A DNA stretch of 64,000 nt from an uncultured Desulfatiglans sp. (GTDB taxonomy: Bacteria; Desulfobacterota; DSM-4660; Desulfatiglandales; Desulfatiglandaceae): NCBI GenBank assembly GCA_900498135.1, contig LR026961.1, forward strand, positions 4,716,203 to 4,780,202, written 5' to 3'. A program made the position numbers and the translations under genes. The notes below the pieces were generated by a model. It saw only the letters and a list, made by a program, of their open reading frames with translations. It was not told the DNA's origin and ran no database searches. Positions 33,439 through 45,871 of this stretch are shown one piece after another; position 1 is the first letter of the stretch, and the number at the start of each line of letters is the position of its first letter.

Positions 33439-35442
33439 TTAGAACAGGCCGGAGACCTTGCCGGTCTTCGTATCGACGTCGATGCGGCGGAAGGCCGGGT
33501 TCGAACCCGTGCCGGGCATCAGGCTGATGGTGCCGGCGCAGGGGCAGAGGAACTTGGCGCCCGAGTAAATGAGGACGTCGCGGATCGGGAGGCTCCACCC
33601 CTTCGGCACACCCTTGACCGTCGGATCGTGGCTCAGGCTCAAGTGGGTCTTGACCATCATGGTTGCGTAGTCGGCATAATTGTGGTCAAGACCCACTTGA
33701 GCCTCTCTCATGATCCAGCCCTTGGGCACACCCTTTAGTGTTGGTTCATGAGAGAGGCTCAAGTGGGTCTTGACCATCATGGTTGCGTAGTCGGCATAAT
33801 TGTGGTCAAGACCCACTTGAGCCTCTCTCATGATCCAGCCCTTGGGCACACCCTTTAGTGTTGGTTCATGAGAGAGGCTCAAGTGGGTCTTGACCATCAT
33901 GGTGGCGAAATCCGCATACTTCGGATCGCTTTCGAGCATCTTGGCCTTGGCTTCGGCCTCGGGGGCCCAGGCGACGCCGTCGGCACCGTAGACTTCCCTG
34001 GCGATCAGGTTGACGCGGTCGCGCAGTTTCATCTCGGTCGGATACAGGAACTTGAACTCGTTCTCTTCGTTGCAGGCGTCGATGACGGCATCGGCAAACT
34101 CCAGTGCGCCTTCGCCGCCCTTTTCCCAGTGCTTGGACTCGGCGCAGCGGGCGCCGGCCGCCTCGGCCGCCTTGCGGACCAGGGCGCACTCAGCGTCCGT
34201 ATCCGTGTAGAAGCGGTTGATGCAGACGACCGGATTGATGCCGGACTTCCGGATCACGCCGATCATGTGGATCATATTCTCGCAGCCCTTCTCGACCAGT
34301 TCCAGGTTCTCCTTGGTGTACTCTTCGGGCAGAGCGATGCCGGGGACGACCTTGGGACCGCCGCCGTGCATCTTGAGCGCACGGATGGTGGTGGTCAGAA
34401 CCGACACGTGCGGCTTCAGGCCGCTGAAACGGCACTTGACGTTCCAGAATTTCTCGAATCCGATATCGGCCGCGAACCCGCTCTCCGTCACATGGTAATC
34501 GAAGAGCTTGAGGCCGACGCGGTCGGCGATGATGGAGGACTGCCCGACAGCGATGTTGGCGAAGGGGCCGGCATGCACCATGCAGGGGTTGTACTCGGCG
34601 GTGCACATCAGGGTCGGGTTGATGGTGTTGCGCATGAAGGCCGTCATGGCATTGCCGACCTCGAGGTCGCCGGTGGTCACCGGTTTGCCGCTCTTGTCGA
34701 AGGCCACGGTGATGTTGTTCAAACGCTCTTTCAGGTCGGCCAGGTCGCGGATGACGGCCAGGATCGCCATACACTCGGAGCCGACGGCGATGCCGAACTT
34801 CGACTGCATGGTATAACCGTCCTGACGCCCGCCAAGGCCGATCACGATGTTCCTGAGCGACTGGGCGCAGAAGTCCATGATCCAGCCCATTTCGACGCGG
34901 GTGGGGTCGATTTCCAGACGGCGCATCCCGGTCAAGCGCTTCAACTGTTCGTCATTGTAGTTCCGCTCGTGCTGCATACGGGCGGTCATGGCCACCATCG
35001 CGAGGTTGTGGGCGTTCATGATGTCGTTGATGTCGCCCGTCAAACCCAGCGAAAACTCGGTCATCGGGATCAGGAGGGAATTGCCGCCGCCTGCCGCCGT
35101 GCCTTTGACGTTCATGGTGGGGCCGCCGGAGGGCTGCCTGAGGGCGCCGCCGACACTCACACCCCTCTTGCCGAGGCCTTCCATCAACCCGCACGAGGTG
35201 GTGCTCTTGCCTTCACCCAGCGGCGTCGGGGTGATGGCCGTCACTTCGATGTACTTCCCATCGGGCTTGTCCTTCAACCTGTCGATGATCTTCAGGAAGT
35301 CCAGTTTGGCAAGCCTCCCCATCGGAAGCATCTCTTCCTTCTGCAAGCCCAGTTTTTCCTGCCACTCCTCGGGAGTCGGCATGTTCTTTTCCGCGGCTTC
35401 GGAAATCTGCCAGTCAGCCATGTTTACCGCATCATAAGCCAT
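33439..35442 (-). CDS. fhs: Formate-tetrahydrofolate ligase with an 80-residue internal repeat insertion
   Basis: The enzyme joins formate to tetrahydrofolate with ATP, a step of the Wood-Ljungdahl pathway or of one-carbon supply. Family blocks are clear: [13 protein letters not shown] (ATP site), [30 protein letters not shown], and the end [18 protein letters not shown] at 35442 (AAGGAGG ten bases upstream) gives 667 residues, about 80 more than usual. The excess is near residues 515-600: the block [11 protein letters not shown]...KGVPKGW occurs three times, separated by [12 protein letters not shown], which is the reverse-strand translation of [10 protein letters not shown]. The insert is in frame. 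Whether the enzyme is active, or this is an assembly artefact, is open. Confidence 0.9.
33635..33903. repeat. 120-bp tandem duplication with embedded inverted repeat inside fhs
   Basis: 33661-33780 is identical to 33781-33900; the match with period 120 extends from 33635 to 33903 (2.2 copies). Each unit contains two 30-base arms that are exact reverse complements (for example 33683-33712 and 33747-33776). So part of fhs was copied in inverted orientation and the product then duplicated in tandem. Confidence 0.95.
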
Positions 35443-36173
35443 CTTTTGCAATCCTCCTTCTCACGTTAATGTTCCTAGTCCTTCAAAAACCCAACTCTTG
35501 TCCATTCACACGACCGCCGGTCGGATCTTCGCGGCCCCGCCCCGGTAATCCCCCCTCGGAGCCGCCAAACCGGCGCCACTCAAGGACTCCGGATCTCCAG
35601 GACATCTTGTCCGCACCGTCGTCTTACACACAACTACCCGGTTTCAAACGAAAAACCAGTCTTTCAAGCCCGCCTCTGCGTCGATCCGTAAGGCGACTGA
35701 CACAACCGGCGGGTCTTTTCCGCACCATGTCTCGTTTCCAGGATCTCAGCCGAAGCGGAACCCGGCCCAGAGGGATAAAGGCGAGCGCGCGAAACCGGGA
35801 AGCGGCACCCTGCTGCCGGATTGCAAACTTCCCAGAACCTGATAGGCATCTCCGGCAGGATTCTGCTTAAAGGTCTTGGTATTTAAGCAGGACTCTGCCT
35901 ATCACAAAAAAATAACAGGGTCAAGCGTAATCATGTTCATTATTTCACGAGCAACGCGTCGATTTTCGGTTTGCCCATCCACTCCGCAAAGTGGTATGTC
36001 TGAAGCGGTCTGTCGTCCAGGGAAACCCGTCCGGCGACGAGCTCAGGCCCGCTGCCGGGTCTTGGCCGGCGGAGCCTGCAGGAACCTTATAGTATCCTTC
36101 ATACCTGTCCATCCAGCATAGGCAGGTTTCGCCATGAGCCGTGGAAGCGGCTCATTCCTCGGAGGAACAACGA
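35443..36173. other. Intergenic region upstream of fhs and proC
   Basis: About 730 bases between two divergent genes. It must contain both promoters. An imperfect inverted repeat (CTGCTTAAA near 35862, TTTAAGCAG near 35881) lies near its middle, with an AT-rich patch around 35905-35950. No coding sequence with a family signature was found. Confidence 0.4.
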
Positions 36174-38676: not shown

Positions 38677-40026
38677 TCAACCGTCCTCGAGTTTTTTGAG
38701 GAGCTGATTGGCCGCCACGAGCGTCGGGTCCCAGGTCGGGCCGAACGGGGGCGCATAGGCCAGGTCGCACTGGCTGTAGGCCGCCACGGTCATTTGCTGG
38801 TGCAGCGCGACCGCCGGGCCGTTGACGCGATGCGCGGCCCCCTCACGCCCTACGATCTGAGCGCCGAGCAGCCGCCCGGACGCCCGGTCACCCACCATTT
38901 GAACCAGCAGCGGGGACGCACCGGAATGGCTGTGCGCCCGCGAAGAGGCCTCGATCGCCACCTCGACCGGATCGAAACCCGCCTTGGAAGCCTCCTTGGC
39001 CGTAAGACCCGTCCGCGCCACCTGCATGTCGAAGACCTTGAAGACGGAGGTGCCGGCAACCCCGTCGAGGGAGACCCTCTGCCCGCTGACATGGTCGGCC
39101 ACAGCCCATCCCGCTCGGTTGGCCCGGAGCGCCAGGGGAATCCAGGTCTTTTCCCCGGTGACCACATGGTAGGCGTCCGCGCAGTCTCCGGCGGCATAGA
39201 TGTCCGGGGCGGACGTCCGCATGCTGCGGTCGACCGCGATGGCCTCCCCCGGGCCGAGTTCCAGCCCGGCCTCGGCTGCAAGCTCGCTGCAGGGCTTCAC
39301 GCCGATGGCGACCAGCACGAGATCGACGTCGACGACATCCTCTGTGCAGTGGGCCTGCAGCGCCCCGTCTTCTGCCTCGATGCGGAGAACCTCCTGCCCC
39401 AGAATGAGCCGCACCCCGTTTTCTTCCACCTCTCTCTGAACCCTCTCCGCCAGCTTGCGATGCGCCCAGGGCAGAAAGACCGGCCGCGGCTTCACCATGG
39501 CGGTGTCGATCCCCAGGGTCCGCAGGGTCTCGCACATCTCGAGGGCGATGTATCCCATGCCGACGATCAACGCCCTTTCAACATGCTGTTCCCCCAAGAA
39601 GCGCTTGAGCTTCCGCCCGTCATCCAGAGTCTTGAGCACCATGACGCCGGGCAGATCGAACCCCGGCAGATCGGGGACGACCGGTGATGCGCCGGTCGCC
39701 AGCAGGAGCTTGTCGTAGTCGACTTCAAACCGGCCGCCGTCTGATCGTACGCCTGCCACCCGCCTCTTTGCCGGGTCGATGCGGTCCACCCGATGCCCGG
39801 TCCGCAGATCGATCCCCTGCTTTTCCCGAAAGACGTGGGCCTCCCGCACCACCAACTCTTCTATCCCGCGCTCTGGCTCCGCCAGATTGTAGGGGATGCC
39901 TCAGGCCGAAAAGGATACGTCCGACGTCTGCTCAAGCACGATTACCTCTAGATCGGGGACCTGCCGCTTGGCCCGGCTTGCGGCGCTCATGCCGGCCGCA
40001 TCCCCGCCAATGACCACGAATCTCAT
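38677..40026 (-). CDS. CoA-disulfide reductase/NADH oxidase-type flavoprotein with selenocysteine at the active-site Cys (Sec42)
   Basis: The full frame runs from ATG 40026 (GGGAGGG upstream) to 38677, 449 residues, with one in-frame TGA at 39903-39901. Before it: VVIGGDAAGMSAASRAKR (FAD site) and VSFSA; after it: GIPYNLAEPERG. The family motif is S-x-x-C-G-x-P-Y, so TGA sits exactly on the redox-active Cys (residue 42 or 43 in known members). Later: ALIVGMGYIALEMCETL (NADH site), DIYAAGDCADAY (second FAD site) and a complete dimerisation domain. It likely reduces CoA disulfide, polysulfide, peroxide or O2 with NAD(P)H. Uninterrupted homology on both sides plus a hairpin after TGA argue for Sec rather than decay. 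Confidence 0.88.
39872..39886 (-). promoter_or_regulatory. Candidate bacterial SECIS hairpin in the flavoprotein gene
   Basis: On the minus strand TCTGGC and GCCAGA form a perfect 6-bp stem with loop GGA. The stem starts 14 bases after TGA and the loop 20 bases after it. A short stem, small apical loop with a leading G, and this distance match the general description of bacterial SECIS elements, which lie within the coding region. Confidence 0.7.
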
Positions 40027-40460: not shown

Positions 40461-43400
40461 CTAACCGGCGGGACACCTTTCGGCCATGGCCTCCCGGATC
40501 CGCTCCTCGAACAAGACCGTGCCCATTTTCGACGCCAGTTCCAGGGCCTCTCGAAGCGATTTCGCAGCGGCCTTACGGCGCGACCCGCAAAGCAGCGTCC
40601 CCCTCACCAGAAGCGCCCGGGCCTGATGGCGCCGCGCCCCGGTTTTTTTGGCCATGCGGAGCGCCTGAGCGACATACCCGGCAGCCTCTTTATGCTCACC
40701 AAGCCTTCCGTAAAGCTCGCCAAGGGCAATCAGGAGCCGCGTCTTGTAGCGCCAGCGCGTATAAGAGATACCCGGCTTGCGAAGTTCACTCCAGACCTCG
40801 TCCAGAATCTCCCGGGCAGCGCCGAGATCGCCCATCTGCAGAAAATTCTCTCCCATGTTGATCCGGGCGTTGTAAATTGTCTCTGGGTCGCCTGTCACCA
40901 GGGCATCCTTCCAAGCCTCGGTGTTCAGATCCAAGGCCTCTTTCAATTCACCCCCCTCTGCATGGACCCAGCCGAGGGTGTTCATGAACCGCGGCCTCCA
41001 GAAGCGGCCGTCGCCCTCCTCCAGGCTTTTTAACCCCGAGAGCAGAGAATTCCTGCTCTTGTCCAGATTCCCCAAAGCTCCATGGATCAATCCGCTCCGA
41101 AAAAGAGACAGGATTCTGAAATAGGGGCTCTTGATCTTTTCGTTGAAGGCTGCCAGGGATTCGTTCAATTCGAGCGCCGCCTGGTAGTCGCCGGTCCAGT
41201 TGTAATACTGCACGAGGTGGGCTGCAGCCCAGGCCCGGGACTCTAGATCCTGCTCCCGCTCACTGTCTTCGAGCGCCTTCAGCAGCAGCGGACGCGCCTT
41301 TTCGAGTCTGCCCAGAACCGCATAGACAAACCCCAGGAAACTTCGAGCCTTTAAAACCAGGAGGGGCCATCCGCCCTCCCGGCCCGCCTCGATGGTCGCG
41401 AGCAGAAACCTCTCGGCCGAACGTGGACGGTGGAGATAAAAGGAAATCCAGCCCAGCCGGAAAAGGGCTGTCGTCTCCAAGAAACGGTCACCGGTCCGCT
41501 GAGCTTCATTGCGCATCCTCTCGAAGGCGCCGCGGGCCTCTTCCATCTGCCCTACGCAATAATGCATCCGGCCTTTCCAATGGAAGATCTCGGCGATCTT
41601 GACCGGCGGGGTTTCGAAGCGGGCCCGCCTCAGGATGTCGAGGGAACGTTCGAGCGAGGCGAGCGCTTCATGGCAGGCGTAAGAATAACGCGCCTGCCTT
41701 CCGGCCTTGAGGGTGTAAGTGAGCGCTTTGTCCCAGACACCGGCATAATGGAAGTGATAGGCCATCTTCGCTATCCGGCCGGCAGGGTCCTGTGTAGGCA
41801 TGTTCTCCAGGGCTTCGCCCGCCAGACGGTGCAGATGGACCCGCTCCCGACGCATAAGGGTATGGTAGGCCACCTCCCACATCATCGGATGAACGAAACG
41901 GAATGCAGCACCACCACGACCTTCCCCTTTGACCAACCGTTCGAAAATGCCCTCCCTTTCCAGATCCTCGAGCCGGCCATCCAGCTCGGCCCCATCCTGT
42001 CCCAACACCTCGAGCATGCGCCTGGAAAAGTCGTGTCCGAGAACGGAGGCGACCTGGACGGTCCACTTCAAACCGCCTGCCAGTGCATCGAGCCGCGCCG
42101 CAAGGACGCCATGGACATTGTCCGGGATATCGATCGAATCGACCGGCAGCTTCAGGACACAGCGGTCGGGGCCGCAGACCATGAGATCACGCCGCAGCAG
42201 CGTGCGACCCATCTCGACCACGAACAATGGATTGCCGCCGGCCTTGGAAACCAGGTCGCGCGTGAGACGCTCTTCAAGGAGCCGGGTCTTGAGGACTGAA
42301 ACCAACAGATCCTCGGCGTCGCGATCCGACAGCGGCCTCAGATGGAGGGAATGCCTGACAAGCGTTGTCATCCAAGGAAACGGGGTGGAACGCCCCGTGC
42401 AGATCACCAGGATCGGCGAACGAGAGCGGGACTCCAGAAGAAATGTCAGAAATTCGCGAGTGGTACCATCGACCCACTGCATGTTGTCGATGTATAAAAT
42501 CAGGGGTCTCAGGGCGGCAACAGCTTCGAAAACAGCCTGTATCTCTCTGAAAAGAATTCTTTTCCTCCCAGCAAGGGCGGTCTCGGATTCGCCCTCCACC
42601 CTTTGAATCATCCGGAAGCGGGCCAGCACTTCGCGCAGCCTCCGTCTTACCGCCTCATCCATCACCCGCAAATCCACCAAGGCGTCCAACTCCCCCTCAG
42701 ACTCCTGTCCAGAGAGCTTGAAATAAGTCCTGAAGGCGGACAGCAGCGGGTGAAACGCGGCAGTTTCTCCGTAGGGACGGCACACGCCCCTCAAGACCAT
42801 TATGCCTTCTGCCTCCCTCGCACGGCAAAAAGCCCCAACGAAACGTGACTTGCCGACCCCGGCCTCGCCGGTCACGAGGATCAGGTGCGGGCCTTTCTTA
42901 CACGCCTCGGCAAAGGAAGATTCCAGAACCTCCATCTCTCTCTTACGATCCAGAAAGGGGGGAGTGTCTTTCCCCACCGAAGCACCCTGGGTTTCCTCCA
43001 GTTCATCCAGGAGTTGAAAGACATGAACGTCCTCAGCCTTGCCCTTAACCGGCAAGGGCCCCATATCCAGAAAGCGGAAATAGGGCTGGACACTCTCCCA
43101 GACTCGCTCCGATACGAGGATCCCTCCCGGCGGCGCCAGAGACTGCAGCCGTGCCGCCAGATTCGTGGTGTCTCCGAGGGCGGTGTAGTCCAGTCGCAGA
43201 TGGTCGCCGATGGCCGCCACCACTACCAGGCCCGTATGAATGCCAATGCGCATCCTGAAGAGGACCCCGTGGCGATCCTCGACATCCCGCCCATATAACT
43301 CCAGCGCACGCTGGATTTCGATCGCCGCCCGACACGCCTGCCGGCTGTGATCCTCATAGGCGACCGGCGCGCCGAACAGGGCCATGACGCCGTCGCCCGT

Positions 43401-43811
43401 ATACTGATTGATGGTGCCTCCTGCCCCATGGATGGCCTTTCCCAGGATCTCGAAGCACCCATCCATGATCTGATGGACATCCTCAGGATCGAGCTGTTCC
43501 GAGATGCCGGTGAAATTCGCCACGTCAGCGAAGAGAACGGAGACCCGCTTTCTCTCCCCCTCCTTCAGATAGTGTCCCCTGAGGATCTTTTCCATAAGAA
43601 AGGGAGGGGTGTAGCCGGACGTCTGTCCGTCTGCATCGCGGCTGTTCGATGCAGGCGAGCCCAGCGGCGCCCCGCACCTTCCACAGTAGGCGAATCCCCC
43701 CGGCACTTCTGCCCCGCATCGCTCGCAGCGGCGCGGAAGCGCCTTCCCGCAGCGGGTGCAGAACCGCACGTCGTCGGCATTTTCAAATTGACACTCCGGG
43801 CACTTTATCAT
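40461..43811 (-). CDS. Class III nucleotidyl cyclase with zinc ribbons, AAA ATPase and TPR domains
   Basis: A 1116-residue cytoplasmic regulator. Two zinc ribbons occupy 1-50 (CPEC/CTRC and CERC/CGRC). The cyclase domain (about 85-270) has RVSVLFADVANFTGISE and NQYTGDGVMALFGAP for metal binding and DYTALGDTTNLAARLQ. An AAA/STAND-type ATPase follows: VTGEAGVGKSRFVGAF (P-loop near residue 315) and PLILYIDNMQWVDG. The last 450 residues are TPR-like helical repeats. Such proteins link a sensed signal to cAMP; the signal is unknown. The ATPase family resembles MalT-type regulators but there is no DNA-binding domain. No cyclase-effector gene is adjacent. Confidence 0.9.
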   Translation of the reverse strand: MIKCPECQFENADDVRFCTRCGKALPRRCERCGAEVPGGFAYCGRCGAPLGSPASNSRDADGQTSGYTPPFLMEKILRGHYLKEGERKRVSVLFADVANFTGISEQLDPEDVHQIMDGCFEILGKAIHGAGGTINQYTGDGVMALFGAPVAYEDHSRQACRAAIEIQRALELYGRDVEDRHGVLFRMRIGIHTGLVVVAAIGDHLRLDYTALGDTTNLAARLQSLAPPGGILVSERVWESVQPYFRFLDMGPLPVKGKAEDVHVFQLLDELEETQGASVGKDTPPFLDRKREMEVLESSFAEACKKGPHLILVTGEAGVGKSRFVGAFCRAREAEGIMVLRGVCRPYGETAAFHPLLSAFRTYFKLSGQESEGELDALVDLRVMDEAVRRRLREVLARFRMIQRVEGESETALAGRKRILFREIQAVFEAVAALRPLILYIDNMQWVDGTTREFLTFLLESRSRSPILVICTGRSTPFPWMTTLVRHSLHLRPLSDRDAEDLLVSVLKTRLLEERLTRDLVSKAGGNPLFVVEMGRTLLRRDLMVCGPDRCVLKLPVDSIDIPDNVHGVLAARLDALAGGLKWTVQVASVLGHDFSRRMLEVLGQDGAELDGRLEDLEREGIFERLVKGEGRGGAAFRFVHPMMWEVAYHTLMRRERVHLHRLAGEALENMPTQDPAGRIAKMAYHFHYAGVWDKALTYTLKAGRQARYSYACHEALASLERSLDILRRARFETPPVKIAEIFHWKGRMHYCVGQMEEARGAFERMRNEAQRTGDRFLETTALFRLGWISFYLHRPRSAERFLLATIEAGREGGWPLLVLKARSFLGFVYAVLGRLEKARPLLLKALEDSEREQDLESRAWAAAHLVQYYNWTGDYQAALELNESLAAFNEKIKSPYFRILSLFRSGLIHGALGNLDKSRNSLLSGLKSLEEGDGRFWRPRFMNTLGWVHAEGGELKEALDLNTEAWKDALVTGDPETIYNARINMGENFLQMGDLGAAREILDEVWSELRKPGISYTRWRYKTRLLIALGELYGRLGEHKEAAGYVAQALRMAKKTGARRHQARALLVRGTLLCGSRRKAAAKSLREALELASKMGTVLFEERIREAMAERCPAG

Positions 43812-43970: not shown

Positions 43971-45740
43971 TCAGCGAAGCGCCTCCAGCGCATATCCGTC
44001 CGCATCCCGACACAAAATCAGGATGCGGTCCGGCGTTTTCAAAAAAGTGAAATCGATCAGGTCCTTTTCATATTTGTCGGATTCCCATGTCTGGAGGATG
44101 CGTTCTCCCACCCATTTGACAGCCACCACCTGATCGAAATCCCGCCGACCAGGCAATAGCTTTTCCGCAACGCTCGAAAACGCACCACCCCGGCCCTTGT
44201 TGATCGTGAATATTTGTCCGTCAAAATCGGTCCGCAGCTCGAGCCTTCTCGCTGTAAAGACCTCGTCATATGTCCTGCGATCGAATCCTCCAAGAAACAA
44301 ATCCTGCTCCCGCCTAAGAGGGTAGCCAGTGACCTTGTACTCTCCTGCATCGCGCTCTCCAAAAGCCGCCAAACGCCCTTCCGGCGTGACATAGCCATGC
44401 AACTGACCCCCGCTCTCCAGAATGACAAGCCGGCCCTCGGCCTCGGGAATTTCGCTGAACTGATAAAGAGAATAGACCCCTGCCGCCGGTGCATAGACCT
44501 CATTCACCTTCGGCGCGACGCCGGATTTGTCCCACTCCACCCGGTAGATCGGCCCTTCATATTGACGGAAAGCGCCCTGTCTCTGAGCCAAAGGCACCGG
44601 CCTGCCCTTTCGGTCCCGAATCACTCGAAAGTAGAACGGTAGGTCCTCGGCCAAGGACTCCAGCCCCCCACCCTGGAGCGCCACGATCCAGGAGCTCAGT
44701 CGATTATCCTGGTTGTCTAAAATCTTCACCGGCCGCGTCAAGGTGACGAGCAGTTCCTCCCCTCCGTCCCCATCCAGGTCAGCGCAATGCAAATGAAGCG
44801 GAATGCTATCCGTGTGCGGGTAGGCCAGCCGGCTTACCTCGTTCAGAGCCGCGTCCGCCAACTCATACAGGATCAACCCCTGCTCGCCCAAACAAGCCAG
44901 CACCGTTCCGTCCGCCCCTTTTCGGCGGCAAGCAACGACTCGGCTGACCGGCTCCTGGAGCCGGAAATGCTCCTGGCTGCGAGCAGGCTTCGAATGTTGG
45001 AAGGAAGGGCCTGAATCAGCAGCAGGGGGAGCCTCCGCTCCAGACTGAACGACCGTCCCAGCCGCCAAAGGGATCTTTTCAGAGGAAGGCACCGCCGCCC
45101 TATGGGAGGTTGCTTCTGCCGTCCGATAATAAAGCACCCGCTCCCCCTCGATCGTGCTGAGCCGACAAACCAGAATCTTCTCTCCCCGCAGCAGCTCCAA
45201 TTTCAAGTCATGCCGCTCAGCAGATACGCCATCTTTCCCTTTCGGGTCCATATCCAGATGATATCCCTTCTCGAGAAGCTCCCTCACCAGACCTTCGAAA
45301 AGGGGAGCCGCGTCGGGCTGCAGTGCGTCCCCTTGGACATGAATGCGGGGGGGAGGTGGCGTGACCACGCGGTCTCCCGGCGAGAGGGGGGCGGCAGGGG
45401 AATCCGCAACGCGCGCCAATGCCGTTTCAGGGAACAGCGCCTCTACGATGATCCACGCGGCCGGGGATTTCAGGGCAGGAGAACCCTCTGGGTCTTCCTT
45501 CGAAACGCACAACCACTCTCCCACCTTCAGCGAGACGGTCCCCTTCTCAAAGAGGAGGCGTCCTTCACCGACCTCTTTCACGCGTCCAACGACACGGAAC
45601 GGGGTCCCGGCGTAGTCATCGAGGAAACCGACCAACGAAGAGAAAGGATTTTGCTCCGGCGCACCCCAGGCAGGCACCCACAGAAATGACACCAGCCCCC
45701 ATAGCACCAGCAGTACCCAACGTTTCCTGTGCAATTTCAT
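43971..45740 (-). CDS. Exported protein of unknown function with calcium-binding-like repeat
   Basis: ATG at 45740 starts a signal peptide (WVLLVLWGLVSFLWVPAWG, cut before APEQ). The mature protein has about 560 residues. An N-terminal region (about 40-120) resembles a small beta domain; a Pro/Ser/Ala-rich linker follows; the C-terminal half looks like a beta-propeller or integrin-type repeat, with CADLDGDGGEELLV, a DxDxDG calcium-type loop near residue 320. I do not recognise a named family. It lies behind the porin gene on the same strand (131 bases) and may belong to the same envelope unit. Confidence 0.65.
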   Translation of the reverse strand: MKLHRKRWVLLVLWGLVSFLWVPAWGAPEQNPFSSLVGFLDDYAGTPFRVVGRVKEVGEGRLLFEKGTVSLKVGEWLCVSKEDPEGSPALKSPAAWIIVEALFPETALARVADSPAAPLSPGDRVVTPPPPRIHVQGDALQPDAAPLFEGLVRELLEKGYHLDMDPKGKDGVSAERHDLKLELLRGEKILVCRLSTIEGERVLYYRTAEATSHRAAVPSSEKIPLAAGTVVQSGAEAPPAADSGPSFQHSKPARSQEHFRLQEPVSRVVACRRKGADGTVLACLGEQGLILYELADAALNEVSRLAYPHTDSIPLHLHCADLDGDGGEELLVTLTRPVKILDNQDNRLSSWIVALQGGGLESLAEDLPFYFRVIRDRKGRPVPLAQRQGAFRQYEGPIYRVEWDKSGVAPKVNEVYAPAAGVYSLYQFSEIPEAEGRLVILESGGQLHGYVTPEGRLAAFGERDAGEYKVTGYPLRREQDLFLGGFDRRTYDEVFTARRLELRTDFDGQIFTINKGRGGAFSSVAEKLLPGRRDFDQVVAVKWVGERILQTWESDKYEKDLIDFTFLKTPDRILILCRDADGYALEALR

Positions 45741-45871
45741 CGATAGAAAGCCCCCCGCGCTGAGATTCAAGTTCAGGAGATACACTCTCAGCCTCAGCGC
45801 AATCCTGGCTCAGGTCCAGCCGGATGGCGGCGGAGCGGACGGCAAGGCGCACCGCACCGCCGCCACGCTCG

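Follow-up and report, generated by a model that had tools for sequence, protein, structure and literature searches.

A CoA-disulfide reductase-like gene of an uncultured Desulfatiglans with a predicted selenocysteine at the catalytic position, and the spread of selenocysteine in its family

We analysed a window of 64,000 nucleotides, i.e., the whole stretch of DNA under consideration, from the genome of an uncultured Desulfatiglans sp. The coding sequence of a CoA-disulfide reductase (CoADR)-like FAD/NADH oxidoreductase lies on its minus strand at 38,677–40,026; it starts with ATG at 40,026, ends with TGA at 38,679–38,677 and has 449 residues counting selenocysteine (Sec). A Shine–Dalgarno-like AGGGAGG upstream of the ATG (about 40,040–40,034, minus strand) was read directly from the sequence. 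Codon 42 is an in-frame TGA (39,901–39,903, minus strand), and the residues around it read DVSFSA-U-GIPYN. It is followed on the same strand by a SECIS-like hairpin, TCTGGC-GGA-GCCAGA (39,872–39,886). With Pyr_redox_2 at residues 2–304 and Pyr_redox_dim at 329–429 the protein is complete, as a sequence-only reading of this DNA had claimed for both sides of the TGA; that reading had also described a perfect 6-bp hairpin with loop GGA beginning 14 bases after the TGA, exactly as we found it. Upstream on the same strand, 40,461–43,811 encodes a 1116-aa protein with zinc ribbons, an adenylate/guanylate cyclase domain, AAA and TPR repeats. The open reading frames at 43,974–45,785 (minus strand; 604 aa) and 33,868–35,466 (plus strand; 533 aa) are without any Pfam match. 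A crude screen of the window for further Sec genes gave none that was convincing; the screen missed the known gene as well, so its outcome carries no meaning.

The protein had been assigned to the NADH oxidase/CoA-disulfide reductase family with Sec at the family's catalytic Cys site, and our comparisons bore this out. The best NCBIfam model was TIGR03385 (CoA-disulfide reductase), with 369.8 bits against a curated equivalog cut-off of 578.8, indicating a CoADR-like family member rather than a proven CoADR. The best PDB matches were 6ruz (315 bits; named NADH oxidase in PDB) and Pyrococcus horikoshii CoADR (3kd9, 4fx9), which share with the window protein a full-length alignment, the lack of a rhodanese domain and the DLAYAPPF motif. 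The TGA codon aligned with the catalytic Cys48 of P. horikoshii CoADR (numbering of PMC6026696), and H365 aligned with the conserved H367. That is, the window protein has the Pyr_redox_2 and dimerisation domains and the one redox residue in SxxxCGxPY of a single-Cys flavin reductase, with Sec for Cys. NADH-dependent persulfide reductase (Npsr; 3nta, 6pfz) shares the FAD/NADH core of two domains and has its active-site Cys at the corresponding position; however, the C-terminal rhodanese domain that marks Npsr (PMC7969121) is absent from the 449-residue window protein, which gave no rhodanese match.

The window protein differs from P. horikoshii CoADR and 6ruz, which are Cys enzymes, in more than its Sec. 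Characterised CoADRs carry a Tyr-rich element, HYYPG, in which Tyr has a catalytic role; in the C-terminal domain of the window protein it reads HSHSG, with S-H for YY, and in the subfamily HAHPG; therefore, the substrate may differ from that of characterised CoADRs. For the pair of catalytic Tyr in S. aureus CoADR, the literature search gave no usable result. In P. horikoshii CoADR, Cys48 forms a mixed disulfide with CoA, and the channel that CoA disulfide enters is made narrower by Y65/Y66/P67, three bulky residues of the lid (PMC6026696). The corresponding lid residues of the window protein are V/R/E, which would suit CoA disulfide. We compared the gene neighbourhood over 75 loci of relatives and found no conserved neighbour; the context thus gives no substrate, and operon context was rejected as a substrate clue. 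From family knowledge, the most probable substrate of the window enzyme would be CoA disulfide or CoA persulfide.

Alternatively, the main activity of the same selenoprotein might be that of an NADH peroxidase (or oxidase), in which Sec42 would pass through a selenenic acid in the manner of the sulfenic acid of Npx and Nox. Selenium favours peroxide chemistry, and the protein shows distant similarity to Npx/Nox (1nhr, 154.6 bits; NOXase_Strep, 241.9 bits). However, CoADR models and structures scored far better, and the residue known as His10 in Npx/Nox is, as read by eye, Ala in the GGDAAGM of the window protein. We consider this activity unlikely as the main one and favour a CoADR-type enzyme.

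Codon 42 was compared among relatives of the gene. Across 213 aligned places, some of which represent the same gene more than once, it was TGC in 106, TGA in 65 and TGT in 42, and no other codon was observed; the 175 different proteins comprised 44 with Sec and 131 with Cys. Of the three stop codons, TGA alone can arise from TGC or TGT by a single base change, so the absence of TAA and TAG proves little by itself. The Sec reading is decided by the lack of other stops, by purifying selection and by recurrence in many species. The codon-42 TGA was the only internal stop in each TGA gene. A separately assembled second genome of the genus encodes a 97% identical protein with the TGA kept at codon 42. 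Between the two genes, the changed codons before the TGA were 3 synonymous and 0 non-synonymous; after the TGA they were 28 synonymous and 14 non-synonymous (dN 0.016, dS 0.094), giving a dN/dS of ~0.17. The sequence-only reading had proposed a search for TGA-containing homologues. We found a close relative of the gene in 43 of the 85 genomes of the class, 8 of these 43 with TGA at codon 42, and further TGA genes in other branches; the 8 cases were checked on sequence, and the remaining class relatives whose sequence was read have Cys.

These observations bear on the view that the TGA is a genuine stop in a dead or truncated gene, whose product would end after 41 residues or restart downstream. 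The Cys codons are one base from TGA, and a standard ORF list holds at this locus a 392-aa ORF from TTG at 39,855, where such a restart could lie. However, its product would be without the N-terminal FAD-binding motif GGDAAG, selection is purifying on either side of the TGA, and TGA recurs in many species with no copy carrying another internal stop. A pseudogene was rejected on these grounds, and we regard a dead or truncated gene as very improbable. A sequencing or assembly error, or the corrected base that the sequence-only reading had named as a ground against itself, has a practically negligible chance, as the identical TGA occurs in the separate congener assembly and many other genomes and nothing was found in its favour. 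In-frame UGA aligned with the Cys of homologues is one mark of a bacterial selenoprotein, and UGA codon 42 is almost certainly read as Sec in the window gene.

Absence of Sec machinery would likewise have spoken against this reading. The genome, which is one contig of 4.80 Mb, has a tRNA-Sec with anticodon TCA on DNA (UCA in RNA) together with SelB (386.8 bits), SelA (624.9 bits) and SelD (369.4 bits), i.e., the full set expected of a bacterium with selenoproteins. The SelD gene (L048; G000:C1:3059355-3060272) has one in-frame TGA of its own, indicating that the selenophosphate synthetase of this genome is probably a selenoprotein too. The same genome encodes a paralogue of the window protein (G000:C1:1963645-1964982; 36% identity) without internal stop, which lies in a longer open frame of 671 aa and possibly has an extra C-terminal domain.

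Next to the codon stands the hairpin. The bSECIS model asks for a loop of 3–9 nt with G in the first two loop positions, a stem of 4–16 bp, a UGA-to-loop spacing of 16–37 nt and an MFE of at most -7.5 (PMC13188914). The window hairpin, with a 3-nt loop GGA starting GG, a 6-bp stem, a spacing of 20 nt and -11.0 kcal/mol, fits this model, although it is not significant alone; 47 of 400 synonymous recodings were as good in energy, and the hairpin was therefore rejected as stand-alone proof of Sec. Rfam had no match at the hairpin, and what it returned was chance matches only. Across genes, model-type hairpins had median energies of -10.1 (Sec) vs -3.9 (Cys) kcal/mol in the window subfamily (Mann–Whitney p 7e-6, the rows being related) and -9.8 vs -6.5 kcal/mol in other subfamilies (p 2e-4, rows likewise related). 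Three single Sec genes of the window subfamily (L011, L038, L159) had hairpins no better than recoded controls. Paired changes were observed in the hairpins of branch B (A-U/G-C at pair 7, C-G/U-A at pair 8) and branch D (C-G/U-A at pair 7).

We consider a selenoprotein with SECIS-directed Sec42 and a CoADR-type cycle to be the joint explanation, with a probability of roughly 85% judged from sequence. UGA codon 42 would be decoded as Sec by SelA, SelB, SelD and tRNA-Sec, directed by the SECIS hairpin just downstream. The enzyme would most likely be a homodimer, namely a FAD/NADH reductase of CoADR type that lacks a rhodanese domain. From NADH, hydride would pass to FAD and on to Sec42 over the flavin, and Sec42 would switch between the selenolate form and a CoA selenosulfide. 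The compound reduced in this way would be CoA disulfide, CoA persulfide or polysulfide. We infer the dimer, the redox cycle, the CoA partner and the substrate from family knowledge, whereas the codon and its recurrence, the machinery, the SECIS fit, the family and the conservation were shown by the present analysis.

The spread of Sec in the family was surveyed by a DNA-pattern search of 395 phylum genomes and a profile search. Sec occurred in at least five branches, scattered among Cys enzymes. Cys-to-Sec exchange at the same position was seen in branches B (HTSYSA-U-GIPYY), C (YISYGA-U-GVPYY) and E (HISYAS-U-GIPYL); branch D had FVSYGA-U-ETPYY and similar motifs with no Gly after Sec. A FastTree tree of the 175 proteins required 12 changes of the Sec label, at least 7 of which were forced by well-supported branches. 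Trees of the window subfamily needed 7–8 changes, with weak branch support, and one Sec clade within this subfamily was not rejected (AU test, p 0.135); with few well-supported branches, proof of independent origins within the subfamily was not obtained. With the T of TGA as base 1, the hairpin loop started at base 24 in the window gene, its congener, G051 and L097, at base 31 in five others and at base 32 in two Desulfatitalea genes; bases 22, 24, 25–26, 30, 31 and 32 were met across Sec genes. Such differing distances fit separate origins but are no proof of them. Together with the scattering of Sec among Cys enzymes, they suggest repeated Cys/Sec exchange. The odds appear about even that the same catalytic Cys became Sec several times independently, with a SECIS newly fitted each time, and that the Desulfatiglandales gene in the window represents one such event. 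The subfamily member L097 reads DVSYSA-U-NLPYN, with Asn after Sec in place of Gly.

The sequence-only reading implied novelty, which did not hold: the family with UGxP is already listed as a selenoprotein (PMC1794560, PMC2398784, PMC13188914). A selenoprotein "NADH oxidase" of Geobacter metallireducens was in a 2006 list (PMC1794560), a 2008 ocean metagenome survey gave a Sec "NADH oxidase" as PRK09564 (PMC2398784), and reviews of 2022 (PMC9312934) and 2026 (PMC13188914) include the family, the latter as CoA-disulfide reductase, TIGR03385, motif UGxP. The window gene is therefore not new in kind. It is likened to this family (WP_011365774.1) by family and motif, sharing U-G-I-P and the Deltaproteobacteria; the reported example is from G. 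metallireducens, and the window gene belongs to a DVSYSA[C/U]GMPYN/HAHPG subfamily with mostly Cys. What is added is the breadth of Sec use across family branches: only a handful of Sec examples had been known in the family, which uses Sec widely in the phylum. Sec enzymes stand beside Cys enzymes of 65–70% identity and form natural matched pairs for the effect of Sec in a flavin reductase with one cysteine. Where a gene caller takes UGA as a stop, genes of this kind will come out truncated or be missed.

One branch of CoADR-like proteins, with twelve genes read (L214-L225; genomes G333, G353, G095, G145, G107, G134, G085, G130, G097, G215, G141 and G222), has Sec at the same site. The motif of this branch is U-E/L/S/P-x-P-Y-Y rather than the listed UGxP; TGA was present in 12 of the 12 copies read and Cys in none. 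A near-identical hairpin, ACATC-GGn-GATGT, follows right after the TGA, and about 11 further rows of the profile search resemble these genes.
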